In this document: positions 503 through 62,636 of the stretch, in pieces | Position numbering within the stretch: the stretch's first letter is position 1 | Layout of the letters: each line of letters begins with the position of its first letter | Assembly: GCF_002968285.2 (NCBI RefSeq) | Contig: NZ_CP134400.1 | Coordinates: 2,728,001-2,792,000 of the forward strand | Reading direction: 5' to 3' | Length of the DNA: 64,000 nt | DNA from: Mycobacterium sp. ITM-2016-00318 | Lineage (GTDB): Bacteria; Actinomycetota; Actinomycetes; Mycobacteriales; Mycobacteriaceae | Position numbers and translations under genes: made by a program | The notes under the pieces: generated by a model | The model's database searches: none | What the model saw: only the letters and a program-made list of their open reading frames with translations | What the model was told of the DNA's origin: nothing

Positions 503-511
503 CGGACTTCG

Positions 512-2046: not shown

Positions 2047-2105
2047 GGTGCTCACCGTATCGGCCTCGGCTAGGACTTGACTCAGGAGTTGTCGGTGGCG
2101 GCACA

Positions 2106-2111
2106 TAGCAT
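2106..2111 (+). promoter_or_regulatory. putative -10 element of uvrA
   Basis: TAGCAT lies 33 bases before the uvrA start and matches the mycobacterial TANNNT -10 form. A TTGACT at 2077-2082 is too far upstream (23-base gap) to be a normal -35. No LexA-type SOS palindrome is visible in the 98-base gap. Confidence 0.3.
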
Positions 2112-2144
2112 GGGGATCAACTATGTCTTCGGGAGGTTTAACGG

Positions 2145-5051: not shown

Positions 5052-5056
5052 GTTAT

Positions 5057-5075
5057 ATTCTCCCTATCTGAGAAT
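5057..5075. promoter_or_regulatory. inverted repeat ATTCTC-N7-GAGAAT between uvrA and SDR
   Basis: A perfect 6-base inverted repeat with a 7-base spacer begins 6 bases after the uvrA stop and ends 33 bases before the next start. It is AT-rich in a GC-rich genome, so it reads better as a regulator site than as a strong terminator. No regulator gene lies next to it. Confidence 0.3.
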
Positions 5076-5107
5076 GCCATTACCGCACGACACAGTAGGG
5101 AGACCAT

Positions 5108-5848
5108 GTGAAAACGGTGGTGATCGGCGCATCGAGCGGGCTCGGGCGCTGCATTGGGGTCGGGCTGGCCGAGCGTGGCCATCGAGTGGCGCTGCTCGCC
5201 CGTCGACGTGAACGCATCGAGAAGGCGGCCGCGGAGGCAGGCGCGGACGCAGTCGCCGTCGAATGCGACGTGACCGACGAGGCGTCGGTGCGCTCGGCCA
5301 TCAGAGAAGCAGCCGACGCCCTCGGCGGCATCGACAACATCGTCTACACCCCGGCGATCGGGTCGGTCGTGCGCCTTGTGGACACGGACGCCGAAACGTG
5401 GAGCCGCGTGTTCGCCACCAACGTCACGGGCGCCGCCATCGCGACGGCGGCGGCCATTCCGTTCCTGACGGAGTCGGCGGGCAAGGTGGTGTACCTGTCG
5501 TCGGACGCAGGCACCTACGGACCACCGTGGCCGGGGCTTGCCGCATACGGCGTCAGCAAGGCTGCCCTGGAACGGCTGATCGAGGCCTGGCGCGCCGAGC
5601 ACCCGGGCGTCGGGTTCACGAGCCTCATCGTCGGCGAGTGCGCGGGCGGCGACGGCGATTCGGCGACGGGCTTCAGTACCGGCTGGGACCGGGAGCTCGC
5701 CGGGGAGTTCTATCCACAGTGGATCTCGCGCGGTTGCATGCCGGGGCAGCTCATGCCCGTCGAGGACCTTGTCGAGGTGGTTCACACCATCCTGCAGACC
5801 AAGTCGGCGACGTCGATGCCCGTCGTCGTCGCACGCGGCGCACCGTAG
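5108..5848 (+). CDS. SDR family oxidoreductase
   Basis: A 246-residue short-chain dehydrogenase. The cofactor motif is GASSGLG at residues 7-13 and the catalytic Tyr-x-x-x-Lys is in YGVSK. The usual NNAG motif is replaced by VYTPA, a departure from classical SDRs that also occurs in divergent mycobacterial members. The start is a GTG at 5108 with AGGGAGA just upstream; the overlapping ATG at 5106 runs straight into a stop. It follows uvrA by 56 bases and converges on the GNAT gene with 5 bases between stops. Substrate unknown. Confidence 0.85.
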   Translation: MKTVVIGASSGLGRCIGVGLAERGHRVALLARRRERIEKAAAEAGADAVAVECDVTDEASVRSAIREAADALGGIDNIVYTPAIGSVVRLVDTDAETWSRVFATNVTGAAIATAAAIPFLTESAGKVVYLSSDAGTYGPPWPGLAAYGVSKAALERLIEAWRAEHPGVGFTSLIVGECAGGDGDSATGFSTGWDRELAGEFYPQWISRGCMPGQLMPVEDLVEVVHTILQTKSATSMPVVVARGAP

Positions 5849-5853
5849 ACCGC

Positions 5854-6711
5854 CTAATAGCCGACAGACGGCAGCCACGCCCCACGCGGATCGGTGTAGG
5901 CGCCGATGCTCATCAGCGTCGACTGCTGCACCAACTGCAATCCCGCGTTCAGGCACCACCTCATCAGCGCGGTGTTGCGTGACGGCACCAGAAAACCAAG
6001 GCCGACGATGGTTTCGGCCGCACCCAGCAGAGCGATTATGTCCCCGTCGGTCTCACCGACCGCGTGGAATAGATAGCCGTAGCCGGTCGCGTATCCGCTG
6101 ATCGCGCCGCCACGTTCGACGACTCGTGCGGTGCCGGCGCCGATCCACTCAGTCAACTCGCCGTGACGATCGTGGCCGTGTACTCGCCGACATAACTCGT
6201 CGCAGCTTCCCACGTCGTTAGGGGTGGCGGTGCGGACGTCGCCCTCCGTCCTGCCTGGAGTCCTCATGTCGCCCTGGAACACCGACAGCGGTTCACGAAC
6301 GGCGAACCCCAGCTTGGCATATAGAGAAAACGACCGGTAGTTGTAAGCGGTCTGGACGAGGCGAACACCGCGGGCGTCGCGCTGGGCGGAGCGCTGGAGA
6401 AGGCGTTGCATCAACTCCCTGCCGACGCCGCCCTGGACGGAAGGGTGGACGCTGACCGGACCGATGCCGATGATTTGGCCGCGCTCGTCTTGGAAGGCGC
6501 TCCCGACGACACCGCCGTCTCGCTCGGCCACCATGCCGAAGATGCCGTCGGTTCCCAGCATCGACTCCATCATCATGGCCGTGAATTCCGGTGACTGGGG
6601 CTCGATGGGAAACGCGTGGTGGGCGGCGAGCGACTCGAAGGCGGCGTACATGGCGCGTGCACAAGCATCGGCGTCGATCGGCGTTGCCTGGCGAATCACG
6701 GTGCCGGTCAT
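5854..6711 (-). CDS. GNAT family N-acetyltransferase
   Basis: A 285-residue protein whose first half reads as a GNAT acyltransferase fold. It has an N-terminal beta strand (VIRQATPIDADACARAM), a central acetyl-CoA binding region around VSVHPSVQGGVGRELMQRLL, and the NYRSFSLYAKLGF segment typical of the last helix/strand. The second half looks like a second, degenerate GNAT-like domain. The acceptor is unknown. Its ATG shares one base with the stop of the winged-helix gene upstream (TGATG), so the two are probably co-translated. Confidence 0.75.
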   Translation of the reverse strand: MTGTVIRQATPIDADACARAMYAAFESLAAHHAFPIEPQSPEFTAMMMESMLGTDGIFGMVAERDGGVVGSAFQDERGQIIGIGPVSVHPSVQGGVGRELMQRLLQRSAQRDARGVRLVQTAYNYRSFSLYAKLGFAVREPLSVFQGDMRTPGRTEGDVRTATPNDVGSCDELCRRVHGHDRHGELTEWIGAGTARVVERGGAISGYATGYGYLFHAVGETDGDIIALLGAAETIVGLGFLVPSRNTALMRWCLNAGLQLVQQSTLMSIGAYTDPRGAWLPSVGY

Positions 6712-7880
6712 CAGCTCATCGTCGCCCTCGACAGCGGTGAAGGGAAGCGCGGGCTGATCCGCACCCCGTCGAGCCAGTCGGTCAGCGCATCAGCCTGGTG
6801 TGTCAGTGCCGCGCGGCCGTCTCGCCCGACATCGTCGAGCAGTCTCAATTCGACGCGTCCGTCGGCGTCCTGCACCCAGCCACCGACCACCATCCCGTTC
6901 CACCAGGCTGTGGGCCCGGCGTTGCCGTTCGTGTCGAACACGTGGCTGCGGTGCTCACCGAGATACCAGCCTCGGTCGAACCATCCCATGGTCGTCGGGT
7001 CGAGGCCGGGCAGCAGCGCGCCCCAGGGGTCAGGTGCGGGTTCCTCATCGAGATCGTCGGGTAGCGCGAAGCCCGGCGTTCCGCCCAGATCCACCTCAAC
7101 CGCGTCGATATCGCGCAGAGCTTGCCGCGCCCACGTCAACGTGTTGCCGAACCACCACTTGATGTCGGTGACGGTGGCCGGTCCGAAGGTGCGCAAATAT
7201 CTCGAGACCAGTTGTGCACGTGCCGCTTCCAGCGTGATGTCATCACGACGCTCGGCGAGCCAGTCCGCGGCGGCCGCCCAGCGGGGCCGCGATGTCGTCC
7301 ACGTCCCTTCATTGGGGCCGCGGACGATCTCGCCGCGGGCACTCAGCACGGTGAGCACTCGCGGCGAAAGCGGAGTGTTTCCGCCCCAAAGCTTTCCGGG
7401 TGCCGGATCGTAGGTGCCCGCCAGCTCGTGGAGTGCCGCGCGCAACTCTTTGGCGCTGGTCGGGCCGTTCTCGGCGAGGTGCCGCAACACCGCCTGACAC
7501 GCGCTCTCCAACCACCGCTCACCGTCGCCGGCGATACCGGCCTTCTGCGCATCGGCGATGAGCCTCCGGCGTTCGTTTTCGGCGACCCGGTCGCTGGCGG
7601 CCGCCTGAACGTGCGGTAGGTAGGCGGCGCCGACCACCCACAGCGTGCGCCGCATCGCGAGGTGCTTGACGGCGCTGCGGCGCTCGTATAGCGCGGCGTC
7701 CAGGTCCGGCACCGCGAAGCCCGGCAGCCGGGCCCACAGCGACAGGTACGGGGTGGCTGGGTCGGTGGCATGCAAACCCACCAGGTCGCTGACCACGTCG
7801 TCAAGCTCGGTGGCGGGTGCAGCCAGAAACTGCCGCCGCGCCAGCCGGGCCCGCCGCTCGGCGTCAGAGAAAGACCGCAT
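6711..7880 (-). CDS. winged-helix DNA-binding protein, AlkZ/YcaQ-like (HTH_42)
   Basis: A 389-residue protein of the HTH_42 family, whose studied members AlkZ and YcaQ are DNA glycosylases acting on crosslinks and bulky adducts. The family opening is seen as LVGLHATDP followed by YLSLWARLPG. In AlkZ-type enzymes the catalytic Q-x-Q lies at this place; here it reads His-Ala-Thr, so glycosylase activity is uncertain. Later segments (KHLAMRRTLWVV, YLRTFGPATVTDIKWWFG, WYLGEH) match the tandem winged-helix core. It overlaps the downstream GNAT gene by one base. Confidence 0.75.
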   Translation of the reverse strand: MRSFSDAERRARLARRQFLAAPATELDDVVSDLVGLHATDPATPYLSLWARLPGFAVPDLDAALYERRSAVKHLAMRRTLWVVGAAYLPHVQAAASDRVAENERRRLIADAQKAGIAGDGERWLESACQAVLRHLAENGPTSAKELRAALHELAGTYDPAPGKLWGGNTPLSPRVLTVLSARGEIVRGPNEGTWTTSRPRWAAAADWLAERRDDITLEAARAQLVSRYLRTFGPATVTDIKWWFGNTLTWARQALRDIDAVEVDLGGTPGFALPDDLDEEPAPDPWGALLPGLDPTTMGWFDRGWYLGEHRSHVFDTNGNAGPTAWWNGMVVGGWVQDADGRVELRLLDDVGRDGRAALTHQADALTDWLDGVRISPRFPSPLSRATMS

Positions 7881-7957
7881 CGGTTGGACACCGTACCCAC
7901 GCGGCCCGACGAAGTTTGGGATCGGTAGGGATCCGGCCCGTCTTGACTACGTCACGA

Positions 7958-7976
7958 CGCCGCCGACACGGCGGCG
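7958..7976 (+). promoter_or_regulatory. hairpin in the lipoprotein gene leader
   Basis: CGCCGCCG-ACA-CGGCGGCG is a perfect 8-base inverted repeat with a 3-base loop. It lies 22 bases before the lipoprotein ATG and 9 bases after a TTGACT at 7943-7948. It could be a 5' mRNA stabiliser or an operator; the sequence does not decide. Confidence 0.35.
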
Positions 7977-7998
7977 CACGAACGAAGGGACTACGACG

Positions 7999-8481
7999 AT
8001 GAACCGAGTTGTCGTTGGCGCGCTGGGACTGCTCGCAGGCGCCGCGCTGATGGTGGGTTGCTCGAACGACAAGGGTGGGTCGGAGCCGACCGCGGCCGCC
8101 GCAGGAACCCAGGCCGGCGCGGGCGGAGCCACCGACGTCAAGGTTGACGGGGGCGATCTCGCAGGGCTGGACAAGAATTCCGTGACCTGCGTGAAGCAGG
8201 CCGGCAAGATCACCGTCGCCAGTAGTGCGATCGGCGGTCAGCAGGGACTTGGCATCGTGATGACCGACGCCGACACGCCGACCGTGGAGTCGTTGGGCAT
8301 GGTGGTGGACGGCAACGCCCTCGCCGTCAGCAACATGGGCGGCATGAAATCGGGCTCGGCCGAGGTCAAGGTGGATGGCGACACTTACACCATCAAGGGT
8401 GAAGCCACCGGCGCCGACATGAAGAATCCGATGGCCGGCATGATCACCAAGCCGTTCACCGTCACGGTGACCTGCAAATAA
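7999..8481 (+). CDS. LpqH-type (19 kDa antigen family) lipoprotein
   Basis: A 160-residue lipoprotein. The N terminus has MNR, a hydrophobic run and a lipobox ending MVGC, with Cys21 as the expected diacylglyceryl anchor. A Ser/Gly/Ala-rich linker follows, then a beta-rich domain. Two further cysteines (NSVTCVK and the final TVTCK) match the disulfide pair of the mycobacterial 19 kDa lipoprotein antigen family. It should sit on the outer face of the plasma membrane. The ATG at 7999 has a GAAGGGA ribosome site; longer in-frame readings toward 7645 run through the promoter and the divergent gene. Confidence 0.85.
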   Translation: MNRVVVGALGLLAGAALMVGCSNDKGGSEPTAAAAGTQAGAGGATDVKVDGGDLAGLDKNSVTCVKQAGKITVASSAIGGQQGLGIVMTDADTPTVESLGMVVDGNALAVSNMGGMKSGSAEVKVDGDTYTIKGEATGADMKNPMAGMITKPFTVTVTCK

Positions 8482-8494
8482 CCGGAATCAGCGG

Positions 8495-8525
8495 AGCGGC
8501 GGGCGTGCATTGCGCGCCCGCCGCT
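8495..8525 (+). terminator. stem-loop terminator after the lipoprotein gene
   Basis: AGCGGCGGGCG and CGCCCGCCGCT form a perfect 11-base stem around a 9-base loop, 13 bases after the lipoprotein stop. The short tail TCCTAAGATT is a weak U-tract, typical of mycobacterial terminators. The hairpin also ends just before the putative -10 of the next gene. Confidence 0.65.
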
Positions 8526-8528
8526 TCC

Positions 8529-8534
8529 TAAGAT
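8529..8534 (+). promoter_or_regulatory. putative -10 of the TPR-CHAT transcription unit (leaderless)
   Basis: TAAGAT is followed by exactly six bases and then the ATG at 8541, with no ribosome site between. In mycobacteria this spacing puts transcription start on or next to the start codon, so a leaderless mRNA is expected. No convincing -35 is seen. Confidence 0.45.
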
Positions 8535-8540
8535 TGCGCC

Positions 8541-10172
8541 ATGAGCACTGCAGAGCTCCAGCGGGCTCGCAGCTTGATCTTCGCCGCACAGGAAGAGACG
8601 GCGAAGGATCTGCTGATCTCTTTGGGCGAGGACATCGAGGACGGCGAGCGGGACGACATCCTTCTCGAACTCTTCGCCCTGCTCGGTGAGCTCTACCTCG
8701 TCCGCACCGCCTACGACGGCACCGAGGAGTGTATTCGCCGCATCGACGACTGCCTTGCCGTCTACCGATCGATTGGGGCGGGCACCGATCCCCAAGCGGC
8801 CGCGCGGGTGACGATGTCGGACACCGAGATCGACCGCATGGTGTGTCGGTATACGCGCCGCGCCCAGTTCTTACGGACTGGGCTCGCGGCCGCCGCCCAC
8901 GGTGACCACGAGGGAGCGGAACTCGCCCTGTTCGTCCTGTGCAACGACGAATCGGGCGGGGCGCACCCCGACCTGGCCGACGAGCACCGATTCCTGATCA
9001 CGTACGCGCAGATTCTCTGTGCGGGCGCGCTGTGCGACGACGATCTCCATGTTCAATCGGTTCCGTTGTGGGAGAGAGTGATCGAGGCGATCGATCGACC
9101 CGGCGCGGGCAGCGAGTCCGACGACCATCTGCTCGTTGCGGGCGCCACCGGCTACGGCAGGTTCTGCATCGAGACCGGCAGGTTGTCCGAAGCGGAGCCG
9201 TGGCTGCGCAGAGCAGGCGCGCGAGCGGAATCCCGGGGCTGGGCGTTGGCGAAGGCGAGAACGCAACTCGAGCGCGGAACTGCCGCGTGGGCGTCGGGCG
9301 ACGTCGGGCAGACCCAGACCCTGGTTCACGAGGCGTATCCCGCCATCGCCGAGGGCTATCGTGCCCACGACGTGTCCAGAAGCTGGCTGTACTTCGGCCT
9401 GATCGCCATGTCGTTGAACAAGCTCGACGATGCCGACGAGCGTTTCGGCTACGCCGAGAGGCATTGGCGCGAGGTGGAGAAGCCGCTGCACATCCACCGG
9501 ATCCTGCTGCAGCGCAGTTGGGTCGACATATTGCGGAACCGCTTCGATGCGGCGACCGAGAAAGCCGCGCAGGCAAGGGAACTCCTAGACTCGTGGCCGC
9601 GCCACAGCTGGCTGCAGTACGCCAGGCTCGACGACCACATCGGCAGCATCCTGCGCGCGCAGGCGCTGGCCGAGCCCGCTGATGCCGCACGCAAACTCGA
9701 GCAGGCCGCCGAGCTGAAGGTGCCCGCAGCGCTCGCGGTGGACTCGGTACGGCACGCGATCGTCGACGCCGATGCCCGAATGCGGTGGGCCACTCTGGTG
9801 TCGGCGCGGATTCTCGCGGGCGCCTTCGCCGTGGCCTACGAGTGGGGTAACACCGGTCTGCTCAGCGAGCTCGTCGAGTACCACTGCGCGCGCGGTGCTT
9901 TCAGCACCGAACCGACCGACAGCGTCGCCGTCGACTGGATGGGCGCGGCCACCGCAGCGGTACCCGTAGAGGCAGATGACGAGTACGCGCTGGTTGCCGC
10001 GGGTTCGCCGGCGGCCTCGCTCACCGGAGGGCTGACCCGGCTCGGACCACTGCCGCCGCTGCGCATGGATCCCGATATGCCACCGATCATGAGCCGTTAC
10101 CGCCAGTTGGCGCAGCAGCGGTACGGCCGTGAGATCACCTCGGGAGAGGTCGCTTGGTCGACGTGGCCGTGA
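8541..10172 (+). CDS. tetratricopeptide-like helical repeat protein, partner of CHAT protein
   Basis: A 543-residue soluble protein, almost wholly alpha-helical. Repeated helix pairs with TPR-like spacing of small and aromatic residues are visible, for example GRLSEAEPWLRRAGARAESRG, then LNKLDDADERFGYAERHWREV and NRFDAATEKAAQARELLDSW. No signal peptide or membrane segment is seen. It overlaps the CHAT gene by 19 bases, and TPR arrays are the usual sensor or scaffold part attached to CHAT proteases. Here the array is a separate polypeptide instead of being fused. The last 70 residues (two LGPLPP-type turns and an Arg/Tyr-rich end) look like a non-repeat tail, perhaps the docking piece. What it senses is unknown. 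Confidence 0.75.
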   Translation: MSTAELQRARSLIFAAQEETAKDLLISLGEDIEDGERDDILLELFALLGELYLVRTAYDGTEECIRRIDDCLAVYRSIGAGTDPQAAARVTMSDTEIDRMVCRYTRRAQFLRTGLAAAAHGDHEGAELALFVLCNDESGGAHPDLADEHRFLITYAQILCAGALCDDDLHVQSVPLWERVIEAIDRPGAGSESDDHLLVAGATGYGRFCIETGRLSEAEPWLRRAGARAESRGWALAKARTQLERGTAAWASGDVGQTQTLVHEAYPAIAEGYRAHDVSRSWLYFGLIAMSLNKLDDADERFGYAERHWREVEKPLHIHRILLQRSWVDILRNRFDAATEKAAQARELLDSWPRHSWLQYARLDDHIGSILRAQALAEPADAARKLEQAAELKVPAALAVDSVRHAIVDADARMRWATLVSARILAGAFAVAYEWGNTGLLSELVEYHCARGAFSTEPTDSVAVDWMGAATAAVPVEADDEYALVAAGSPAASLTGGLTRLGPLPPLRMDPDMPPIMSRYRQLAQQRYGREITSGEVAWSTWP

Positions 10173-11386
10173 GCGGCGCTCCGGGGCAGACCTTGGTCCT
10201 ACGGTTCGCCGACGTCGGCGTCGCCACCTACGCCAGCCTTCGCGTCCTCGGTGCACCGTCGCGCACGGTCACCTGGGTGGTCGATGAGCCGACGCTGGTC
10301 ACAGCGTTGGAGCAGCTGGCGCGGGCGCTACCGGACCCGCACGGCGCCGAAACCCAACGCGAGGCCGTCGAACGCGCCATCGCCACAGGGCCTTTCGCGT
10401 CACAGGGCGGCGAGTCGGAGATCGCGCGCCTGCTGGGCTCTCAACTCATCGCGGCAGCCGCATGGCAGCTGCTGAACGATTGCGCCGCATCGCCTCGCGC
10501 GGCTCTGTTCATCTCGCCCAGCGCGCGGCTGGCAAGGGTGCCGTGGTCCGCCTTGGCGATGCCAGGCGACGACGGTTTCCGGCTCATCGAACTCGTCGAT
10601 GTGCTGATGGCTGCACCGCCCAACATCGTGAACGCGTCGCGGTATGCCGTCGACTGGCAGACCAGGAAGGACGAACCGCCGCTGCTGGTGCTCGATCCGC
10701 GCGTGCCCGGACAGCGGCCCGATTCCCCGCTGGGATCGGTTCTGGGCCGACCGTCGCCGGAGACGCCGTTGGCGCGCCATTTCGGCGAGTTGATGAAGCG
10801 TCGAGCCGTACTGCCCGGGGTGGCAACCGCTGTCGAGTTGTTCCGGCGCAGTGATGCAGGCCGGGGGTGGCTGGCCGGCCAGCTCGCGCTCTCACCGAGC
10901 AGACTGCTCTATGTGGGACATGCGACTGCCGCGGACGGCGATGTGGGCCATGCGGACCGCGCGGCGCTGCACCTCGCAGACGAGCGGCCACTGACAGCGG
11001 CGGATCTGATGTCGGCCCGGCTGCCGTTTCCGCCTCGAGTCGCGCTCCTGGCGTGCGCGTCTGGTGGCGACTATCAGTTCGACGAGGCGACGGGGCTTGT
11101 CGCCGCCTTCATTCTGGGCGGTGCGCAGCTGGTGACGGCCACGCTGTGGTCGCTTCCCACTGCCGCCGGCTACCGGCACTTCGCCCCGGATTCCGTTGAC
11201 TTCAGCGCTGATCCGATGGCCGATGCGATCGTGGCGGTCGACACCGCCCACGAAAACCCCGACGCGGGTGGCGCAGTCAACCGTTGGCAACGCGCGCAGA
11301 TGCGGAGGTGGCGCGATGGGGATGTGACCGCGAGCCCGCTGTATTGGGCCGCGCTGGTCACATTCGCCGTCGGCGGGGCCCGGTGA
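10154..11386 (+). CDS. CHAT-domain (caspase-like) putative cysteine protease
   Basis: A 410-residue protein whose C-terminal 230 residues form a CHAT domain, the caspase-HetF-associated cysteine peptidase fold. The catalytic His is His256 in LLYVGHA and the nucleophile is Cys301 in VALLACASGG. The downstream GLVAAFILGGAQLVTATLW and SPLYWAALV segments are the conserved helix/strand and C-terminal parts of the family, so the dyad looks intact. The N-terminal 110 residues are beta-strand then helix and may contact the TPR partner. The TTG at 10154 has GGAG 7 bases upstream; a GTG at 10169 overlapping the TPR stop (GTGA) is the alternative. Cellular target unknown. Confidence 0.85.
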   Translation: MVDVAVSGAPGQTLVLRFADVGVATYASLRVLGAPSRTVTWVVDEPTLVTALEQLARALPDPHGAETQREAVERAIATGPFASQGGESEIARLLGSQLIAAAAWQLLNDCAASPRAALFISPSARLARVPWSALAMPGDDGFRLIELVDVLMAAPPNIVNASRYAVDWQTRKDEPPLLVLDPRVPGQRPDSPLGSVLGRPSPETPLARHFGELMKRRAVLPGVATAVELFRRSDAGRGWLAGQLALSPSRLLYVGHATAADGDVGHADRAALHLADERPLTAADLMSARLPFPPRVALLACASGGDYQFDEATGLVAAFILGGAQLVTATLWSLPTAAGYRHFAPDSVDFSADPMADAIVAVDTAHENPDAGGAVNRWQRAQMRRWRDGDVTASPLYWAALVTFAVGGAR

Positions 11387-11389
11387 CGG

Positions 11390-12016
11390 TCAGGCGGGCG
11401 GCACAGACACCGCGACCTCGGTCTCGTCCTCCGGCCGGAAAAACGTGTCGATGACACTGCCCGGTGCGACCTTCGTCATCGAAGACGCTGGTATCAAGGC
11501 GGTTTCGTGGACGGCGAACTGACCGCCGCCCGGCCTGCGAACCATCAGGTCGAGCTCGACCTCGCGGTAGTCCTCCAGGCGTTCACCGGTTGCACGCATA
11601 CCGGTGATGACGCTGTGGGAGCGGATTCCGTGCCGGATCAGCCCCAGCTGGTGGCCGGTGAGCAGTCCCTTGTCGACGAGCATCTGATCGAAGGCGGCAC
11701 GGACCGCCATCATGTCGTCGGCCAGCGAAAGGCGTTCTCGGGCAGCGGGGTCGAAAGCGACGAGCAGGACGGCGCCGGGACGCAGCGTCGAGGTGATGGT
11801 GTCGTCTCGGAGCCGGCCGGCGAATCGCAGCCCCGTCACGCTCTCGACCTCGATCGTGGCCGCGTCAGTGATCGTGGATACGACGCCGACGCCGACGCCG
11901 ACGCCGGTGGCGGTAGCGGGGTGTTTCGCCGATGCGCGGGAACGGGTGAGAAGAAGGGTCGTGGAGATGCCGACTCCGATAACGGCAAGCACGGTGGGCA
12001 ACATCGCATGAGGCAT
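11390..12016 (-). CDS. membrane-anchored protein of unknown function in the CHAT module
   Basis: About 208 residues, not recognised. An N-terminal hydrophobic segment (MLPTVLAVIGVGISTTLLL) should be one membrane helix. A short linker follows with GVGVGVGV, encoded by four copies of a 6-base unit at 11881-11904, and then a soluble alpha/beta domain with many Asp/Arg. It is convergent with the CHAT gene (3 bases between stops) and divergent from the next gene. The start is uncertain: ATG 12016 is chosen, ATG 12004 would remove four residues, and a TTG at 12055 is possible. The position suggests a membrane partner or anchor for the module; this is inference. Confidence 0.6.
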   Translation of the reverse strand: MPHAMLPTVLAVIGVGISTTLLLTRSRASAKHPATATGVGVGVGVVSTITDAATIEVESVTGLRFAGRLRDDTITSTLRPGAVLLVAFDPAARERLSLADDMMAVRAAFDQMLVDKGLLTGHQLGLIRHGIRSHSVITGMRATGERLEDYREVELDLMVRRPGGGQFAVHETALIPASSMTKVAPGSVIDTFFRPEDETEVAVSVPPA

Positions 12017-12066
12017 GCATCTAGGTTCGGCCGGCGGCTCGGCTACCGAACCCAACTTTCCGGCTA

Positions 12067-12079
12067 GGTGATATTCACC
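12067..12079. promoter_or_regulatory. palindrome GGTGA-TAT-TCACC in divergent promoter region
   Basis: A perfect 5-base inverted repeat with a 3-base centre lies between the divergent membrane-protein gene and the 12100 gene, 8 bases upstream of the putative -10 of the latter. It could be an operator serving both directions. Confidence 0.3.
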
Positions 12080-12087
12080 CCCGCTCC

Positions 12088-12093
12088 TATCCT
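12088..12093 (+). promoter_or_regulatory. putative -10 for the 12100/13404 gene pair (leaderless)
   Basis: TATCCT is followed by exactly six bases and then the ATG at 12100. The layout is the same as in front of the TPR gene at 8541, which suggests that both transcription units of the CHAT module make leaderless mRNAs. Confidence 0.45.
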
Positions 12094-12099
12094 CTAGGA

Positions 12100-13407
12100 A
12101 TGACCACGGGTGCTGCAGCAGGCACGGCGATCGCGGTGGCGCGGCCGCGTCAAGCCGTGATCGACGCAGCCTGGCGGGCGATCGGCCAGGGCGTCGAGGT
12201 GCTCAGCGGTGACGACGGCGGTCCGTTGCGCAGGAGCGTCAAGCGGATCATCGACCCCCTTGTGCTGCGGTTGCGCTCGAATACGCAGTACTCGGCGCCG
12301 TTCGTCGACGCCGTCGTGGCATCGGCGATGCACGAACTGATCGTCGGCAACGCGGCCGCGCTGCGGGACGCAGCAGCGTGGTTCGAGGTGCTCAAGCGTG
12401 AACGCCGCAGGCTGCGCATCACGGCTGGCAACGCGCAGGAACTGTACTTTCCCGTCTGCTTCGAACTCGCCGTTACCAAAGGGTCGCCGTCAGGCGCCGA
12501 TGACGAAGCGGCAGCGGTGCTGCGTGACATTCACGCCGACCGTGATCGCACCGGTGTCGAGGTGCTCAACCGCTTCGTCGCAGACGAGCAGGTCGTCGCG
12601 AAACTGTCAGAGCAGCTTCGACACAGCTGGCGAGACGTGCGGGCAGGCGGCGAGATCACCGGCCCGTTCCTCGCGGGGCTGTCCACGGTGCTGGGGTCGG
12701 CGCAGGGCCATTCCGAGAAAGTGGCACGGCAACGGGTGTGGTCGGCGCTGATCGCCGACGCAACGCCGTACAACCTCGGCGCAAAGGCTCATGATGCGAA
12801 AGCAGACCTACCGTGGTCGATCGTATCGCTTGGGTTGAGTTCGGTTGAGCCGCAACAACCTCCGGCGGTCGTAGGTGGATCAGCCTCTGACCGGCCGCTG
12901 AATCGTTCGGTCGTCGACCGCGTTCGTGGCACGCTGCGGCGCGCCCTCGATCGCGATGAATTGCCTGACGTCCCACTGCTGTGCGCGGAAGAGGTCGACA
13001 GGTCCTGCGCGCCATGGGGGCTGCTTGCCGAGGACAATCAGGCCACGCTGATAGCCGGAATCGAGATCGCGGTCGATCTCGCGCCACTGACCGACGCGGT
13101 GCCGCGCTATCAGCTGTCCTGCCTGATTCAGGCGCGGCTGCGCAAAGAGGCCTACGTCATGCATGCGCGCCGGTATCTGGTGGAGGGCGGCCCGATTCAC
13201 CCCCGCCAACAGCAGGTGAACGACGATCTCTCCGAGTTCGCGCGTCCGTATCTGAGTCGGTTGTGGGCCCGACTGCACGGCCGCGACGTCTGGCAGGAGC
13301 CGTGCGCCGACGTCGACGACGTTCGGTCGCTGCTCGAGGGGGTTGCACGATCGGTGAGCCTCGACCACCGTCAGCGGATCAAGGCGATGTTGCAGGAGGC
13401 CGGATGA
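12100..13407 (+). CDS. protein of unknown function, CHAT-module gene
   Basis: A 435-residue soluble protein, not recognised. It is mostly helical, with an Arg-rich first half (KRERRRLRITAG) and a proline-containing linker near residue 250 that divides it into two halves. The second half ends in an Arg/Glu-rich helical region. No signal peptide, membrane helix, Walker motif or enzyme signature is visible. Its stop overlaps the start of the next gene (ATGA), so the two are translationally coupled. The tight packing with TPR and CHAT genes suggests a partner such as an adaptor, sensor or substrate. Confidence 0.7.
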   Translation: MTTGAAAGTAIAVARPRQAVIDAAWRAIGQGVEVLSGDDGGPLRRSVKRIIDPLVLRLRSNTQYSAPFVDAVVASAMHELIVGNAAALRDAAAWFEVLKRERRRLRITAGNAQELYFPVCFELAVTKGSPSGADDEAAAVLRDIHADRDRTGVEVLNRFVADEQVVAKLSEQLRHSWRDVRAGGEITGPFLAGLSTVLGSAQGHSEKVARQRVWSALIADATPYNLGAKAHDAKADLPWSIVSLGLSSVEPQQPPAVVGGSASDRPLNRSVVDRVRGTLRRALDRDELPDVPLLCAEEVDRSCAPWGLLAEDNQATLIAGIEIAVDLAPLTDAVPRYQLSCLIQARLRKEAYVMHARRYLVEGGPIHPRQQQVNDDLSEFARPYLSRLWARLHGRDVWQEPCADVDDVRSLLEGVARSVSLDHRQRIKAMLQEAG

Positions 13408-14495
13408 AACTCGTCGCCGAATCCGGTTTGTGGAGCACCGGCCCGCAGTCGACACCGACTCCGCTTGTCGCGGTGCTGGAAGTCAGCGGCGCCGTGCTGT
13501 CGTGGACGATCGACGACGCTGCGGTTGCTCCGACCATCACGTTCACTGACGTGTCCCGCGCCGACTGGCTGTGGCGCCTGCTCGGCGAATCCGGCCACAG
13601 CGCGGTCGCGGCAGCGATGAACGGACGCCTACCCGACAATGCCCAGACGATCGACGTGAACGGCGTCGCCGTGCTGCCCGGATCGGTGGACCAGCTGCGG
13701 CGGTTGGCACTCGGTCACTGGATGCGGCGCTGGTGGCCTGCCAGCCATCGCGACGGTATCGCTGCCCTCAACGGCGCCCTGCTCGACGCCGAGATCGCGC
13801 TCCTGACATCGGGTGCGCAGGACTTCTTCGGCGATGACACCTTCGACTCGGACATGGCTGGGCTTCTCGCTGGCCATTCGGCAGCCTTGAATGAACTTGT
13901 CAGGGTGGGGGATCCGCGCGTCGTCGACTTGGTGCGTTCCGCGAGCGAGCTGACCGACGACGTCGGCATCGTCCTCGCCGAGCCGGTCGCCACTGCACCG
14001 CAGCGCGACGATTACGCCCTCGCGGCGGGCGCCGATCGGGATCGGCGAGCCACCGAAGCCATTGCGCGAGGGACCACCTCGGTGGCGTGGGCGGGCGTTC
14101 CGCCTGCGATATTCGACGCCGCGGAGAACACGGTCGACTGGCACGTCGAGGCGGCGGCACCCGGTGTCGATGCCGTTGTCGCGGTGGAGTTGTTGGGGTC
14201 CGGCTCACCCGCGGGTATCGCCGCGCGGCTGCGAGCAGGCGATCTGCGCGGCGAGGGTGTCCTCGATTACCGCGGGCACGCCCGCTTCCCGCTGCTCGAC
14301 GCGCAGCAGCAACCGGTGACGGAATCAGCGGCCTGGAACCACGATTGGCAGTTTCCCAGGCTGACGGTCGGTGTCGACGTCGATGAATCGGCGCAGACGC
14401 GCGGCCGGGTTCGCGACTTCGCGCGGGTCCGCTTGGCTGCTCCTGCCGGCGATGCCTTTCTCGCCGAGATACTGGCCGCCGAATCGGATTATTAG
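13404..14495 (+). CDS. protein of unknown function, CHAT-module gene
   Basis: A 363-residue acidic protein with a Trp-rich N-terminal half (DWLWRLLGES, HWMRRWWPASHRDG) and a beta-rich C-terminal half. It is not recognised; there is no signal peptide, membrane helix or known catalytic motif. The start is fixed by an ATGA overlap with the upstream gene and an AGGAGG site at 13394-13399. The coding frame also runs open upstream, but that part is a shadow of the previous gene. Its stop overlaps by three bases the stop of the convergent small gene. Probably the obligate partner of the 435-residue protein. Confidence 0.7.
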   Translation: MKLVAESGLWSTGPQSTPTPLVAVLEVSGAVLSWTIDDAAVAPTITFTDVSRADWLWRLLGESGHSAVAAAMNGRLPDNAQTIDVNGVAVLPGSVDQLRRLALGHWMRRWWPASHRDGIAALNGALLDAEIALLTSGAQDFFGDDTFDSDMAGLLAGHSAALNELVRVGDPRVVDLVRSASELTDDVGIVLAEPVATAPQRDDYALAAGADRDRRATEAIARGTTSVAWAGVPPAIFDAAENTVDWHVEAAAPGVDAVVAVELLGSGSPAGIAARLRAGDLRGEGVLDYRGHARFPLLDAQQQPVTESAAWNHDWQFPRLTVGVDVDESAQTRGRVRDFARVRLAAPAGDAFLAEILAAESDY

Positions 14496-14812
14496 GACTT
14501 CTCGTCGTCTGAGCGCATCGATTTGCGGATCTGTTCCAGCCGTTCCGCTGCCGCGCGTTGACGCTCCTCGTACTGCTCTTCCACTGAGCGGCCCTCTGGA
14601 GTTTCGGCAGCGAGTTCGGTCGCGCCGATCGCAGTTCCGTACCGCGTCTCGATCTTCTCGCGGACCGATTCGAAGGTCGGAATCCCGTCAGGCGTGTACC
14701 CGGTATCGGCGGCCTCCGCGGGCGGCGGGGCGGGTGGTGGAGGCTCGAGCGCTTCGGAGGTGGCTTCTTCCGGCTCGGGCGTTGGCTCGTCAGCGGTCGG
14801 ATCGCCGGACAT
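14492..14812 (-). CDS. small acidic proline-rich protein with C-terminal helix
   Basis: A 106-residue protein, not recognised. The first 35 residues are Asp/Glu/Pro-rich and probably disordered (including EPPPPAPPPAE). The rest has a conserved-looking core (TGYTPDGIPTFESVREKIE) and a long charged C-terminal helix rich in Glu, Arg and Gln that could form a coiled coil. The ATG at 14812 is preferred; the frame stays open far upstream but over the divergent cyclase gene. Convergent overlap with the 13404 gene makes it part of the same compact block. A regulatory or scaffold role is only a guess. Confidence 0.6.
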   Translation of the reverse strand: MSGDPTADEPTPEPEEATSEALEPPPPAPPPAEAADTGYTPDGIPTFESVREKIETRYGTAIGATELAAETPEGRSVEEQYEERQRAAAERLEQIRKSMRSDDEKS

Positions 14813-14890
14813 GAAGTCACAGTACTCGGAATGTGGTTCAGCTTTGTCGGAACCACCGCTGGTCGGATCCGGCGGTGGGACACTGCGGTC

Positions 14891-16270
14891 ATGGCGCGGA
14901 TGCCGGATACGCACTACGCAACAGGCCCCACAGGCAAGATCGCCTACCAGGTCATCGGAGATGAACCCATCGACCTTGTGATCGTGCCCGGCTGGATATC
15001 CCATATCGACAAGCAATGGGACGACGCATCGTGGCGAGGGTTCATCGAGGAACTCGCTTCGTTCGCTCGTGTGGTTGTCTACGACAAGCCCGGTACCGGT
15101 CTGTCGGATCCCGTTGACGGTGTACCGACGGTGGAGAACCGGGCCGACGACTTGCGCGCAGTGATCGACGCGGCCGGCTGCGAACGACCGGCCCTGTTCG
15201 GGTTTTCCGAGGGCGGCCTCATCAGCACGTTGTTCACCGCGTCCTTTCCTGAGCGAGTCAGCGCCCTTGTCCTTTATGGAACCGGTGCTGGCGGAACCCC
15301 GGACAATCTGGACATGTCGACACAAGTGCGGGCTTTCGAATTGATCGCCAAACTTCGATCGACAGTCGAACACTGGGGCGAGGGCCTGACGATTGATTGG
15401 GCGGCGCCCAGCAAGAAGGGCGACGCCGAGGAGCGTCGGAGGATGGCGGCTTTCGAGCGTGCCGCGATGAGCCCCAAGATGGCACTGATCACCTGGCAGG
15501 CGGTCCTGCGCCAGCTCGACATGGCGGATGTATATGCCAACGTGCGAGTTCCGACTCTGGTTCTACATCGCAAAGACGACATGATTCCCGTCGAACTCGG
15601 GCGGGCGTTGGCCGCGAGGATCTCAGGGGCTCGCCTGGTCGAGCTTGAGGGGATCGACCACATTCCGTGGTATGGCGACTACAAGTCGATCACCGGCGAA
15701 ATCGAGGAGTTTCTCACCGGCCAGCGTCACCAACATCTGCCGGATCGGGTACTGGCCACGGTGCTGTTCACCGACATCGTCGAATCCACCCGACGCGCGG
15801 CCGAGCTAGGTGATCACCGCTGGCGCGAACTACTTCAACGCCATGACGAGATAGCACGCGTCGAAATCGCTTCCTATCAGGGCCGTTTCGTCAAGCAGAC
15901 AGGCGATGGTCTGCTTGCGACCTTCGACGGTCCAACCAGAGCTGTCCTCTGCGCGACGGCACTCTCCGAGCGCATGCCACAGATCGGTCTCGATATTCGT
16001 GGCGGTCTGCACACAGGTGAGTGCATACGTCGAGGCGATGACATCGGCGGTATTGCGGTTCACATCGCGGCCCGGATCGCAGCAAAGGCCTGTGCAAAGG
16101 AAGTGCTCGTGTCGAACACCGTGAAAGACCTGGTCTACGGCTCCGGAATCACCTTCGAGGATCGGGGCGCACACAACTTGAAGGGCGTCCCCGGGGTATG
16201 GCAGTTGCACGAACCGACCGGTTACCACGATCCGGTTGAGAACGCGCTTGCCGCGGCGGAACAGTACTAG
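14891..16270 (+). CDS. alpha/beta-hydrolase fused to class III nucleotide cyclase
   Basis: A 459-residue two-domain protein. The N-terminal 270 residues are an alpha/beta-hydrolase with a nucleophile elbow GFSEGG near residue 104 and a candidate catalytic His in EGIDHIPW. The C-terminal domain starts near residue 289 with the metal-binding motif ATVLFTDIVEST and continues through KQTGDGLLATFDGP. The same domain order is found in M. tuberculosis Rv1900c (LipJ), an adenylyl cyclase. At the place of the usual Asn of the NxAAR motif this protein has His (VHIAARIAAKA), so turnover may be altered. The start is ATG 14891; ATG 14900 is possible. It closes the accessory block 6 bases from the esterase remnant. 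Confidence 0.85.
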   Translation: MARMPDTHYATGPTGKIAYQVIGDEPIDLVIVPGWISHIDKQWDDASWRGFIEELASFARVVVYDKPGTGLSDPVDGVPTVENRADDLRAVIDAAGCERPALFGFSEGGLISTLFTASFPERVSALVLYGTGAGGTPDNLDMSTQVRAFELIAKLRSTVEHWGEGLTIDWAAPSKKGDAEERRRMAAFERAAMSPKMALITWQAVLRQLDMADVYANVRVPTLVLHRKDDMIPVELGRALAARISGARLVELEGIDHIPWYGDYKSITGEIEEFLTGQRHQHLPDRVLATVLFTDIVESTRRAAELGDHRWRELLQRHDEIARVEIASYQGRFVKQTGDGLLATFDGPTRAVLCATALSERMPQIGLDIRGGLHTGECIRRGDDIGGIAVHIAARIAAKACAKEVLVSNTVKDLVYGSGITFEDRGAHNLKGVPGVWQLHEPTGYHDPVENALAAAEQY

Positions 16271-16276
16271 CGCCAC

Positions 16277-16441
16277 CTACTCGCGGCTGTCTGTTCGAAC
16301 GAGGGGGCTGACCGGCGTGGGCGGGAGCGGGGTGGGCGGCACATCGGGTGTTCCGATCTGGCCGGCCAGCCTGGGCAGGGCGGCGGCGAATGCGTGCGAG
16401 GCGAACGGCCAGTCGTGTCTGCCCGGCCGACTGTGAGTCGG
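16277..16441 (-). pseudogene. 3' remnant of an esterase gene directly after lysX
   Basis: After the lysX stop there is a second TAG, and then the same frame stays open for 55 codons to a TAG at 16277-16279. The peptide contains HDWPFASHAFAAALPRLAG, which looks like the C-terminal His-containing end of an esterase D or mycolyltransferase-like alpha/beta-hydrolase, followed by a proline-rich tail. There is no start codon or upstream part. I read it as the leftover end of a gene once encoded downstream of lysX. In M. tuberculosis Rv1639c occupies that position; whether the remnant belongs to it needs an alignment. Confidence 0.6.
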
Positions 16442-16444
16442 CTA

Positions 16445-19400
16445 CTACCGGGGTTTGGCCAGTGGAAAAGGCAGCGTCTCACGGATGCTGCGGCCGGTGA
16501 TCAACATGACCACCCGGTCCACACCCATGCCCAGTCCGCCGGTCGGCGGCATCGCATACTCCATGGCCTGCAGGAAATCCTCGTCGAGCTCCATCGCCTC
16601 CGGATCGCCGCCCGCCGCAAGCAGCGACTGCTCCTGCAGGCGCCTGCGCTGTTCGACCGGGTCGGTGAGTTCGCTGTAGGCGGTGCCCAGCTCGACTCCC
16701 CACGCCACGAGATCCCAGCGCTCGGCGACCCCGGGAATGCTGCGGTGCGGCCGGGTCAGCGGCGACACCGACGTCGGGAAGTCCTTGTAGAACGTCGGCT
16801 CCTCGGTTCGGTCCTCGACCAGGCGCTCATAGAGCTCGAGGACGACCGCGCCGGCGTCCCAGTGGTTGAGGTACGGGATGTCGGCGGCGTCGCACAGCCT
16901 GCGCAAGGTAATCAGGTCGGTTTCCGGCCCGATCTCCTCGCCGAGCGCCTCGGACACGGCGCCGTGCACCGTCTTGACCGTCCATTGACCGGAAATGTCA
17001 ATCTTTTCGAGCGTGCCGTCGTCGCCGGGCCTCAGAAAAACGTGTTCACCGTTGGCGGCGAGCGCGGCGTTCTGGATCAGTTCACGGCAGCCGTCGATCC
17101 ACACGTTGTAGTCGGCGTGTGCCTGATACGCCTCCAGCAGCGTGAATTCGGGATTGTGGCTGAAGTCAACGCCTTCGTTGCGGAACGCGCGGCCGAGTTC
17201 GAAGACTCTTTCGACGCCGCCGACGCACAACCGCTTGAGGTACAGCTCCGGTGCGATGCGCAGATAGAGATCGAGATCGTAGGCGTTGATGTGGGTGAGG
17301 AACGGGCGTGCGTTGGCGCCACCGTGAATCTGCTGCAGTATCGGGGTCTCGACCTCGAGAAACCCCTTTCCGACCAATGTTTCGCGGATGGCGTGCAGCA
17401 CGCCGCTGCGCGCTCGGATGAGTTCACGGGCTTCGCTGTTGATCGCCAGGTCGACGTAGCGGGCGCGTACCCGGGCTTCCTGGTCGGTCAGGCCCTTCCA
17501 CTTGTCGGGGAGTGGGCGCAGGCACTTGCCGATCAGCCGCCAGCTGCCAACGATCAACGACCGGATGCCCGACCGGCTGTTGCCCATCGCGCCGGTCACC
17601 TCGATAAGGTCGCCGAGGTCGATCGCACCGGTGAAGTCCGCGGTGGTCCCGCTATTCAGTTCCGAGTTGTCAAGCAGCAGTTGAACTTCACCTGACCAGT
17701 CGCGCAGCTGCGCGAACAGCACACCGCCGTAGTCGCGAATTCGGAGCACCCGGCCCGCCACGGTCAACCCGGTGCCGTCGGCGGTCTCGATCGCCTGGTC
17801 GACCGTGTGACTCGGTGCCTGTCCGACGGGATAGGCGTCCACGCCACTGGCTTGCAAATCCTTGAGCTTGGCCATCCGGACGCGCACCTGTTCGGGCAGC
17901 CGGGGCGCGTCGCCGTTCTCCGGCAGGTCGGCCCGCAGTCCGGCCAGGTCGGGCGCGCTGCCGTCGTGATGCAGCAGACCCGTGGCGACGAGGCGCTGCG
18001 GAGCGGCAATGTGCTGTCCGGTGTGTTGTTCGTTGCGGCGTGAAAACGGAAGAACCAGAAAGCCTTCTGCGATCACCGATGCGACGCCGACCCGCGGGAC
18101 CAGCCGGGCGTCCTCATAGCAGGCGTAGCGCGGCACCCATTCGGGCTTGTACTTCATGTTCGAGCGGTACAGCGTCTCCAGCTGCCACCAGCGGGAGAAG
18201 AAAACCAGCAGCCCCCGCCACAGCCGCGCGACCGGACCTGCGCCGAGCTGCGCGCCGTGCTCGAACGCCGACCGGAACATCGCGAAGTTGAGCGAGACCC
18301 GGCTGACGCCGATGCCCTCTGCCTGCTGCAGCAGCTCGGTGACCATGAATTCGATTGTGCCGTTTGGTGATTGCGGTGACCGTCGCATCAAGTCGAGCGA
18401 GACACCGTTGTTGCCCCACGGCACCAGCGACAGCATCGCGACAACGGTCTCGTGCTGCAGCGCCTCGATCAGCAGGCAGTCGCCGTCGGCCGGATCGCCG
18501 AGCCTGCCCAGCGCCATCGAGAAGCCGCGCTCGCTCTCGGTGTCGCGCCAGGCGTCGGCCCGTTTCACGACGGCGGCCATCTCGTCGGGGGAGATGTCGC
18601 GGTGTCGCCGCATTCGCACCGTGAGCCCGCCACGGCGCGCGCGAGTCACGGCCTGGCGGACCGCGCGCATGTCGGGGCCCGACAGCCGGAAACCGTCGGG
18701 GTGCAGGATCGCCTCGTCGCCGAGTTGCAGCGCGTTGAGTCCTGCTTCGCGAAACGATTGCGCCGCAGCCGAGCTGGCGCCCATCACGCCCGGCGCCCAG
18801 CCGTACTCCTGGCACAGTCGCAGCCACGCCTCGATCGCCTGCGGCCACGACTTCGGATCGCCGACCGGGTCGCCGCTGGCGAGGCATACTCCGACCTCGA
18901 CGCGGTAGGTGATCGCCGCTCGTCCGTTCGGCGCGAACACCGCAGCCTTGTCCCGTCTCGTCGCGAAGTAGCCGAGCGAGTCGTTCTTCCCGTACAGCTT
19001 GAGCAGCCCGCGGATCGCCGATTCGTCCTCGCCGGTGAGTGCATTCTCGGAGCGCTGCGACCGGAACAGCACGATCGCGGCGGCCATCAGCGCCAGAGCG
19101 CCGAACAAGCCGAGAACTGCGTTGACGAGCACGTGCGGGTGCTGGCCGTCGAAGGCGTTGGAGTCGACGCCTGCGAAGGCTGCGACGCGGTTGACGGCGT
19201 AGGCCAGCCGGTAGTCGCGCTCCAGCGAGCCGGGAAAGAGTTCGAGCAGACCCCAGCCCACCAAAATTCCGATCGCCAGCCCGGCGATCAGCGTGAGCGC
19301 CGCCTTGAACAGCGCACCGCGGCGCACCTTCGCCCAGAACTCCTTGCGGGCTAGGATCAGGAAGACGACCGCCGCGATATGGAAGGCGAGGCCGATCATC

Positions 19401-19750
19401 TCGCCGGTCTCCTGCATCCACGTCTCGCCCCTTGCGACGATGTCGTAGACGTTCCAGACGATCGACGCGGCCATGTAGAGGACGAGGATCAACCAGGCGA
19501 GGCGTTTGCGGGCCGCCAGCGCAGCGGCCAGCAGCGCCAGCACGAAGGCCCACGCGAAACTCGTGTCGGGGAAGTTGAAGATGTAGTCGTTGACGAACTC
19601 GCGAGGTTCCTTGATGAGCCATCGGATGCCCGGTGAGACGCTCGCCAGAAGTGACAGCGTGGCGATGACGCCGACCGTCCAGCCTGCGGCCGCCGGCACC
19701 CAGGAATAGTGGGATCTGGGTCGGACCAGCGGCGGGCTAGTGAGGGTCAT
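16445..19750 (-). CDS. lysX: lysyl-phosphatidylglycerol synthetase / lysyl-tRNA synthetase LysX
   Basis: LysX makes lysyl-tRNA and transfers the lysine to phosphatidylglycerol, which lowers surface charge and protects against cationic peptides. The 1101 residues show all parts in order: about six N-terminal membrane helices, a cytosolic GNAT-like transferase domain (DUF2156; [21 protein letters not shown]), an OB-fold anticodon-binding domain ([14 protein letters not shown]), and a class II synthetase core with motif 2 ([15 protein letters not shown]) and motif 3 ([12 protein letters not shown]). A TATCCT lies 8 bases before the ATG at 19750, so the message may be nearly leaderless. The same place next to infC is held by Rv1640c in M. 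tuberculosis. Confidence 0.97.
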
Positions 19751-19820
19751 AGGCCGCGAGGATATTCGCTCATCCGCAGAAATGGGTGTGACGCGACGCG
19801 GGAGGCATCAGAAGCAGGCG

Positions 19821-20156
19821 TTACCAGACCGGGCCGGTGTATTTCTCGCCGGGACCCTGGCCGGGGTCGTCGGGAGCGGCGCTGGACTCGCGGAATGCCA
19901 GTTGCAGGCTCTTCAATCCGTCGCGCACCGGGCCTGCATGCGGGCCGAGGTACTCCGCCGATGCCGAGACCAGGCCGGCCAGTGCGGTGATCAGCCTGCG
20001 CGCCTCGTCGAGGTCGCGCTTGGGGCTGTCATCGGGGTCCTCCGACGAGAGGCCGAGTTTCTCCGCCGCGGCGCTCATCAACATCACCGCCGCCCTTGTG
20101 ATCACCTCGACGGCGGGAATGTCGGCCAGCTCGCGAATGTCAGGAACCTCGGTCAT
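19821..20156 (-). CDS. DUF1844 domain protein
   Basis: A 111-residue protein with the DUF1844 pattern: an N-terminal MTEVPDIRELADIPAVEV segment, then MLMSAAAEKLGLS and a DEARRLITALAGL helix. The family is small, helical and found beside infC and lysX-type loci in actinobacteria; its function is not known. The ATG at 20156 is preferred; an extension to 20264 would run into the infC leader. The C-terminal 25 residues are Pro/Gly-rich and probably disordered. Confidence 0.8.
   Translation of the reverse strand: MTEVPDIRELADIPAVEVITRAAVMLMSAAAEKLGLSSEDPDDSPKRDLDEARRLITALAGLVSASAEYLGPHAGPVRDGLKSLQLAFRESSAAPDDPGQGPGEKYTGPVW

Positions 20157-57622: not shown

Positions 57623-62636
<5,014 letters not shown>

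Follow-up and report, generated by a model that had tools for sequence, protein, structure and literature searches.

A TPR component belongs to the CATRA ternary systems, and TPR and CHAT regions with a His/Cys pair are combined in Csx29 of Craspase/CASP. According to the part of the Craspase report that was available (PMC10028731), an allosteric signal relayed by the TPR region orders the His and Cys of CHAT, a single cut is made in the partner Csx30, and the fragments of the cut partner act downstream. The available parts of two further reports describe a caspase-superfamily protease accompanied by an extra constant protein in CATRA (PF20270; PMC8195603), and a membrane protein coupled to an actinobacterial caspase-superfamily protease in EACC1, in which a swapped C-terminal effector lies behind the caspase (PMC7159879). 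Here we describe a gene module that shares single features with each of these systems. It is located in a 64,000-nucleotide stretch of the chromosome (5.46 Mb, one contig) of Mycobacterium sp. ITM-2016-00318 (NZ_CP134400.1, positions 2,728,001 to 2,792,000; hereafter, the window), and encodes a TPR protein, a predicted CHAT protease and two proteins of 435 and 363 residues, together with a membrane protein.

The resemblance to Craspase comprises the TPR and CHAT parts, the His/Cys pair and, if the mechanism proposed below is right, the downstream action of fragments of a cut partner. However, an array and Cas7-11 accompany Craspase and neither is present near the window (elsewhere in the genome they were not sought); no spaced repeats were found at positions 1-20000, and no Rfam CRISPR family in the whole window. 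The CHAT profile gave no meaningful match to PDB chains, Csx29 included, and the five module proteins matched none of the PADLOC models. Craspase membership was thus ruled out by location (no array nearby, no PADLOC match) and by gene structure, Csx29 being one polypeptide whereas the TPR and CHAT of the window are encoded by two genes. As for CATRA, the CATRA-C family PF20270 is absent from the window genome (G000) and was found in only six of 148 genomes of the class, and in hhalign comparisons of the five module families with eight CATRA proteins the probability stayed below 1% (a true relative gives 100), which rules out membership there as well. The situation also differs from that of EACC1, since no extra domain was found behind CHAT in an alignment of 13 distant and the mycobacterial sequences. 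In the literature, no description of the module was found among the matches listed, in a search that left subscription journals mostly outside, and no paper was found for 'CHAT domain-containing protein' with 'Mycobacterium'. In short, none of the catalogued systems that were compared corresponds to the module; the 435- and 363-residue families are new to the libraries searched, in which the CHAT domain alone is described.

Eighty mycobacterial loci were collected with CHAT as bait (58-83% identity; 105 confirmed, 80 kept), so that the presence of CHAT in all of them is by construction. The TPR, CHAT, 435- and 363-residue genes were all found in 78 of the 80 loci, with identical order and strand in all 78; the two incomplete loci lie at contig ends (L049, which lacks TPR, and L019, which lacks the 363-residue gene). 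The lysX gene is located downstream in 18 loci and is missing from 38 for which at least 7 kb of sequence is available, 23 loci being too short; the block is accordingly present in more than one chromosomal setting. Values of dN/dS of about 0.09-0.27, with locus L002 as reference, indicate purifying selection on the module genes. In the genus of the window, 27 of the 35 genomes listed in a sample of the order carry the module, and the nearest CHAT relatives among named genomes belong to Mycolicibacterium and Mycobacterium.

Outside the mycobacteria, profiles of the 435-residue protein and of CHAT each matched 49 of the 298 genomes of the order sample, 48 being common to both, and in a draw from the whole class they matched 34 and 38 of 394 genomes, respectively, with 33 in common. 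Some mycobacterial and Nocardia genomes are in both draws, which are therefore not independent. The genomes that break this agreement carry a fragmented 435-residue gene (G219 and G413), a fragmented CHAT gene (G314) or a weak match to CHAT (G279, G464, G495 and G503; E-value = 1.2e-4 to 5.5e-7), and in a further one (G516) a divergent 435/363 pair was later found adjoining CHAT. Both proteins are common to eight genera of the order sample and six of the class sample (two shared), and the genera with the module include Nocardia, Saccharothrix, Actinosynnema, Actinokineospora, Actinophytocola, Umezawaea, Glycomyces and Stackebrandtia. The 435-residue protein had a match in 33 non-mycobacterial genomes (22 from the order and 11 more from the class), and the loci of 29 of them, all but G076, G090, G097 and G168 (genus g39), were fetched. 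In 26 of these 29 distant loci, which were picked by the 435-residue match alone, the 435, 363, TPR and CHAT genes are consecutive on one strand, and the three misses consist of two broken fragments (L112 and L131) and a locus at a contig end (L123). Homologues of the 435-residue protein are therefore found mostly with CHAT, the opposite of the mostly separate occurrence that would speak against a common module, and the co-occurrence across actinobacteria that the preliminary description of the locus proposed to check is seen for the four core genes in the loci fetched. Comparison of the loci thus establishes, at the level of sequence, 435-363-TPR-CHAT as one inherited unit and bears out the earlier proposal of a compact protease module in which TPR and CHAT are joined by unrecognised partners.

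Several loci depart from this pattern. The 435-residue remnants at L112 (9327-10995) and L131 (9630-9890), one beside a membrane-protein gene and the other beside a remnant of a propeller gene, represent module decay. One Nocardia genome (G021) has a further TPR-CHAT pair that belongs to the families of the module (L181, 8493-11376; contig 10), and no 435- or 363-residue genes were found among the heuristically called genes of its 18.5 kbp. The most divergent module, that of G516 (L180, 5328-13514), has a TPR-kinase gene on the opposite strand, followed by CHAT, 435-like and 363-like genes and an extra gene for 381 residues (12369-13514); the latter was considered as an NYN nuclease and rejected, as it had no match in Pfam.

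CHAT is the only one of the five proteins with a Pfam match over the cut-off (PF12770, 56.7 bits against a cut-off of 24; E-value = 3.4e-15), and no other protein of the window genome matches PF12770. All 51 sequences of an alignment of 25 mycobacterial and 26 distant members have His256 and Cys301, and among 81 mycobacterial sequences the two residues are kept in at least 97%. The profile match and the His/Cys pair place the protein in the CHAT family with its protease residues intact, and endopeptidase activity is predicted. The TPR assignment of the preliminary description is weak for the window protein itself (TPR_19 only, E-value = 0.47) and clear for a distant orthologue (TPR_12, 2.8e-19); the identity of the partner as a TPR protein is taken from such distant orthologues. 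In eight of the 29 distant loci TPR and CHAT are encoded in one open reading frame, and whether split or fused, the two are indicated by these gene structures to act as one unit. In the divergent G516 locus the TPR protein has a Ser/Thr kinase domain as well (1.7e-24), a hint that TPR may be the input side of the module.

None of the five proteins scored above the cut-off in NCBIfam, and the 435- and 363-residue proteins had no family over the cut-off in Pfam either. The model of the 435-residue protein is all-helical, with a mean predicted local distance difference test score (pLDDT) of 90.2 and a predicted template modelling score (pTM) of 0.68; no solved structure in the PDB was similar to it at a usable score. 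Eighty columns of this protein are conserved at the 85% level, of which 19 are basic and six acidic, and because the charged conserved columns are mostly basic and rich in arginine, an acidic ligand or partner would suit it. The protein is probably an adaptor or sensor. A search for a cleavable loop in either partner protein had been proposed; in the 435-residue protein such a loop was rejected, the only stretch with pLDDT under 50 being residues 1-10, and attention was moved to the 363-residue protein, which does contain a candidate linker with low pLDDT and a conserved motif.

The 363-residue protein was modelled with a mean pLDDT of 77.4 and pTM of 0.75 (pLDDT of 75 to 59 in the four further models), as N-terminal strands followed by a helical domain, then a coil (residues 184-220) and finally an Ig-like beta domain; fold searches of solved structures with this and the 435-residue model returned nothing usable. 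Within the coil, the pentamer ALAAG (residues 205-209) ranks first of 359 pentamers for conservation, with a mean entropy of 0.10 in 53 rows, compared with 2.71 in the stretches on either side. (The family profiles and the ranking of pentamers used 25 mycobacterial sequences per family in addition to the distant ones.) The linker ahead of the motif ranges in length from 5 to 65 residues, compared with 9 to 13 for the spacer that follows, and residues 201-210 have the lowest interior confidence of the model (pLDDT = 32). YALAAG is found in 34 of the 53 sequences, FALAAG in six, and forms with L, W, V or H or minor variants in 13. Among 104 members, LAA is absent only from L073 (ALVAG) and unreadable in L065 (masked), both of which are outside the 25 mycobacterial sequences. 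The isolation of ALAAG between variable stretches, together with the low model confidence, argues for a linear motif, and the 363-residue protein is probably a latch or a substrate of CHAT.

Both forward units had been assigned promoters of the leaderless type, and the pattern proved to be conserved across the mycobacteria. In the upstream regions of 75 of 78 TPR genes and 71 of 80 435-residue genes the sequence TANNNT begins precisely at -12 of the start codon, and in 76 of 78 and 76 of 80, respectively, it begins at -14 to -12, where shuffling predicts 1.3 and 2.5. Shine-Dalgarno-like sequences were recognized before only four of 78 TPR genes and none of 80 435-residue genes, compared with 73 of 75 lipoprotein genes and 64 of 77 363-residue genes. 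Both mycobacterial units thus evidently share a conserved promoter sequence of the predicted leaderless type, and in the distant loci a -10 element at -12 of a possible 435-residue start is present in 12 of 29 and lacking in the other 17. The region 8479-8545, which contains the hairpin upstream of the TPR promoter, has a minimum free energy of -41.3 kcal/mol (z = -5.6; none of 200 shuffles was as good), as folded from the window sequence alone. Leaderless translation in M. tuberculosis is better sustained in starvation and under nitric oxide, according to the available part of the work concerned (PMC8485053), and by analogy the module might enjoy the same advantage.

The membrane protein has an N-terminal hydrophobic segment and two DUF3592-like repeats; DUF3592 is matched below the cut-off in relatives (E-value = 0.0014-0.0061) and not at all in the window protein. 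Its gene gave a tblastn match in 78 of the 80 mycobacterial loci (none in L005 and L037), is shortened in many species so that it reaches at least 70% of the window length in only 25, and is matched by a profile, in part partially, in 18 of the 29 distant loci. A further member, constant in the mycobacteria and overlooked in the preliminary description, is a lipoprotein of the Myco_19_kDa family (PF05481), which lies upstream of TPR in 74 of the 80 loci, the other six having less than 250 bases upstream or no TPR gene. The lipoproteins of the mycobacterial and Nocardia loci group apart from the four other PF05481 genes of the genome (branch support was not read). An exported partner is recognized in 18 of the 29 distant loci, namely the lipoprotein in six and a transmembrane-anchored PQQ-like propeller in 12 (that of L131 being a remnant; the PQQ matches are below the Pfam cut-off). 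In the Nocardia loci L105 and L110, the lipoprotein and membrane-protein genes diverge from a single 435-363-TPR-CHAT operon. The small acidic gene at the end of the block had also been counted as a member, and this was rejected, since it is present in only 17 of the 80 loci, adjoining the 363-residue gene in 12 and lying on the opposite side of the block in five (L015, L037, L053, L061 and L062). The lipoprotein or propeller and the membrane protein are frequent extra members, and the acidic gene is not.

The close packing of five genes and their coordinates were confirmed on the sequence (Table 1). The overlap of 19 bases between TPR and CHAT holds with the TTG start; with GTG at 10163 or 10169 as the start it would shrink to 10 or 4 bases, respectively, and overlaps of all three lengths exist among relatives (the choice of start being heuristic). 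The 435- and 363-residue genes overlap by four bases in all 76 loci in which both full genes could be measured.

Table 1. Positions of module genes and associated features in the window
Feature	Position	Strand	Remarks
Lipoprotein gene	7999-8481	+	Myco_19_kDa family PF05481; E-value = 3.3e-29
Strong hairpin	8493-8527	+	Terminator-like without T-run; between lipoprotein gene and TPR promoter
-10 element TAAGAT	8529-8534	+	12 bases 5' of TPR ATG; leaderless-type
TPR gene	8541-10172	+	543 residues; putative regulatory partner of CHAT
CHAT gene	10154-11386	+	410 residues from TTG; PF12770, predicted caspase-like protease
Catalytic His256 codon (GH[AV])	10919-10921	+	51/51 aligned sequences
Catalytic Cys301 codon (ACxSG)	11054-11056	+	51/51 aligned sequences
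Membrane-protein gene	11390-12055	-	Convergent with CHAT, 3 free bases between
-10 element TATCCT	12088-12093	+	12 bases 5' of 435-residue gene ATG; leaderless-type
435-residue gene	12100-13407	+	All-helical core protein
363-residue gene	13404-14495	+	Overlaps 435-residue gene by ATGA
YALAAG motif	14013-14030	+	Residues 204-209 of 363-residue protein; candidate CHAT cut site or tmRNA-tag mimic
Small acidic gene	14492-14812	-	Overlaps 363-residue gene by 4 bases

The surroundings of the module read as housekeeping-type genes. They include what we take to be a uvrA-like gene (2145-5051), a gene for a LysX-type protein (16445-19750) and, presumably, ribosomal, pheST-like and arg-like genes; an rRNA operon is located at 57627-62840. 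The gene adjoining the module (14831-16270) encodes a protein that combines an alpha/beta hydrolase with an adenylate cyclase domain (NF058673 LipJ; 383 bits, below the cut-off of 800), and is regarded as a neighbour and not a member, because a match of at least 60% identity exists in only three of the 80 loci.

From these data we tentatively favor an envelope-linked, chromosomal module in which CHAT is gated by TPR and the 363-residue protein is cut at the YALAAG linker as output. The module proteins would rest in a cytosolic complex, with CHAT kept inactive by TPR and the arginine-rich, helical 435-residue protein serving as adaptor or sensor, while the state of the envelope would be reported by the membrane protein and by the exported partner (lipoprotein or propeller). 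On a trigger, CHAT might be released or reorganised and then cut the 363-residue protein at YALAAG, parting the helical domain from the Ig-like domain, and this irreversible cut would be the output or release it. A precedent for both the gating and the single cut is given by Csx29 and Csx30, as far as the available text of that work goes (PMC10028731). The activity, trigger and substrate of CHAT are inferred in this scheme. Several points weigh against it: the membrane-protein gene was not found in 11 of the 29 distant loci, the 363-residue model is based on a mycobacterial alignment only and its five versions range in pLDDT from 77 to 59, the motif reads ALVAG in one member (L073) and ALAAA in two, and LAAG is not rare, with seven cases in the TPR set and five in the 435-residue set. 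The near-constant gap of 9-13 residues from the motif to the beta domain is also what a buried first strand would give. This constancy suggests a structural strand, and with it a different function for the same module, in which the motif is a strand or a docking site, the substrate is encoded elsewhere, and the 435- and 363-residue proteins regulate CHAT. The alternation of small and hydrophobic residues in YALAAG fits an edge strand, and the neighbours of the Rhodococcus plasmid CHAT genes described below have no profile similarity to the 363-residue protein; we regard this account as a real, if doubtful, possibility. It has to contend with the pLDDT of 32 at the motif and with the most divergent module (L180), in which the motif is kept (EIYALAAG) though the stretch that follows has changed. 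That the genes are neighbours merely by chance or through a shared housekeeping location, with no common function, is hardly credible: within the mycobacteria the block could simply be inherited, but the 435-residue protein and CHAT occur together in several genera, in different gene orders and with fusion.

A role in phage defence or abortive infection, in which active CHAT would kill or arrest the cell, is suggested by CHAT proteases that work in type III-E CRISPR (in the available part of PMC10028731) and, in partly available literature, with bacterial gasdermins. Plasmid relatives point the same way. Relatives of the 435-residue protein and of CHAT lie close together in six records, five of them plasmids of Streptomyces and the sixth a 2.66-Mb Nocardia sequence that is listed as a plasmid, and the full module set is present in the Nocardia record and in the one Streptomyces record that was opened. 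Three Rhodococcus plasmids (L175, 5148-9362; L176, 4964-9221; L177, 4721-9218) carry a three-gene run of a divergent CHAT and two unknown proteins, with a TPR gene nearby and an NYN-domain gene within 8 kbp in all three, one of the NYN matches being over the Pfam cut-off. Their CHAT belongs to the same family as that of the module (hhalign probability 100, E-value = 2.9e-84), but these operons differ from it in the two other partner proteins and in the NYN-domain gene of the neighbourhood, and the run resembles a mobile subtype of the module. The plasmid neighbours were considered as homologues of the 435- and 363-residue proteins and rejected, as no similarity was detected by profile comparison. 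Against defence, there is no PADLOC match for the five proteins and no repeat array at positions 1-20000 of the window, the neighbouring genes read as housekeeping-type, a two-pattern scan of viral contigs found no relatives of the 435-residue protein, and tblastn found none of the 363-residue protein in phage records. As to gasdermins, Pfam recognized no gene of that type among the scanned neighbours, and the fold searches of both partner models yielded nothing usable. Conflict systems are marked, according to the available part of one survey (PMC7159879), by displacement of effectors, by effector segments that vary and by a patchy distribution. In the module, the same four genes are present in all 26 intact distant loci with no swapped effector, and only the exported partner varies (lipoprotein versus propeller). 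Because of its apparent housekeeping setting and constant composition, the module is unlike the published conflict systems, and nothing was found for the prey-guard or cell-death role that had been suggested; we consider a defence function improbable.

Free LAA ends are recognized by ClpX, and the candidate motif of the 363-residue protein resembles the tag that the transfer-messenger RNA (tmRNA) of the host encodes. In the window genome this tag is ADSNQRDYALAA, and its own 363-residue protein reads PQRDDYALAAG. The tags predicted with ARAGORN in 30 module-bearing genomes end in [YF]ALAA in 29 and in YDLAA in one. The five residues before ALAA resemble the tag of the same genome with a similarity of 185, compared with 139 on random pairing (P = 0.0145; 28 genomes, uncorrected for relatedness), and after collapse to 12 clades the fit is weak (P = 0.064). 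The residue just before ALAA is that of the tag in six of the seven genomes with a Y tag in which the motif could be read, and in five of the 21 with an F tag. Covariation of motif and tag is thus suggestive, and the resemblance is treated as a lead, because it was noticed post hoc and LAAG arises by chance in other module proteins. If CHAT cut between Ala208 and Gly209, a helical half ending in DYALAA would be freed for ClpXP, so that an ssrA degron would be unmasked in a caspase-like switch; we think this rather unlikely. In a variant, the motif would be a pseudo-tag that is displaced by accumulating tmRNA-tagged peptides, which would turn the protease on. A model for such a degron is provided by the anti-sigma factors RseA and RsiW, in which regulated cleavage delivers what is left of the protein to ClpXP for degradation; unlike the module, these are membrane proteins cut by site-1 and site-2 proteases, with no CHAT. 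RseA and ClpXP are both named in the available part of the Craspase report (PMC10028731). The unmasking of a degron, if true, would join regulated proteolysis to the degradation route of trans-translation.

If the envelope-linked module works as we propose, many mycobacteria and other actinomycetes, soil species among them, would hold a stably inherited, caspase-like signalling device outside CRISPR. The defined set of four proteins, the single candidate cut site and the loss-of-function controls at hand would then make a role of CHAT without CRISPR testable.

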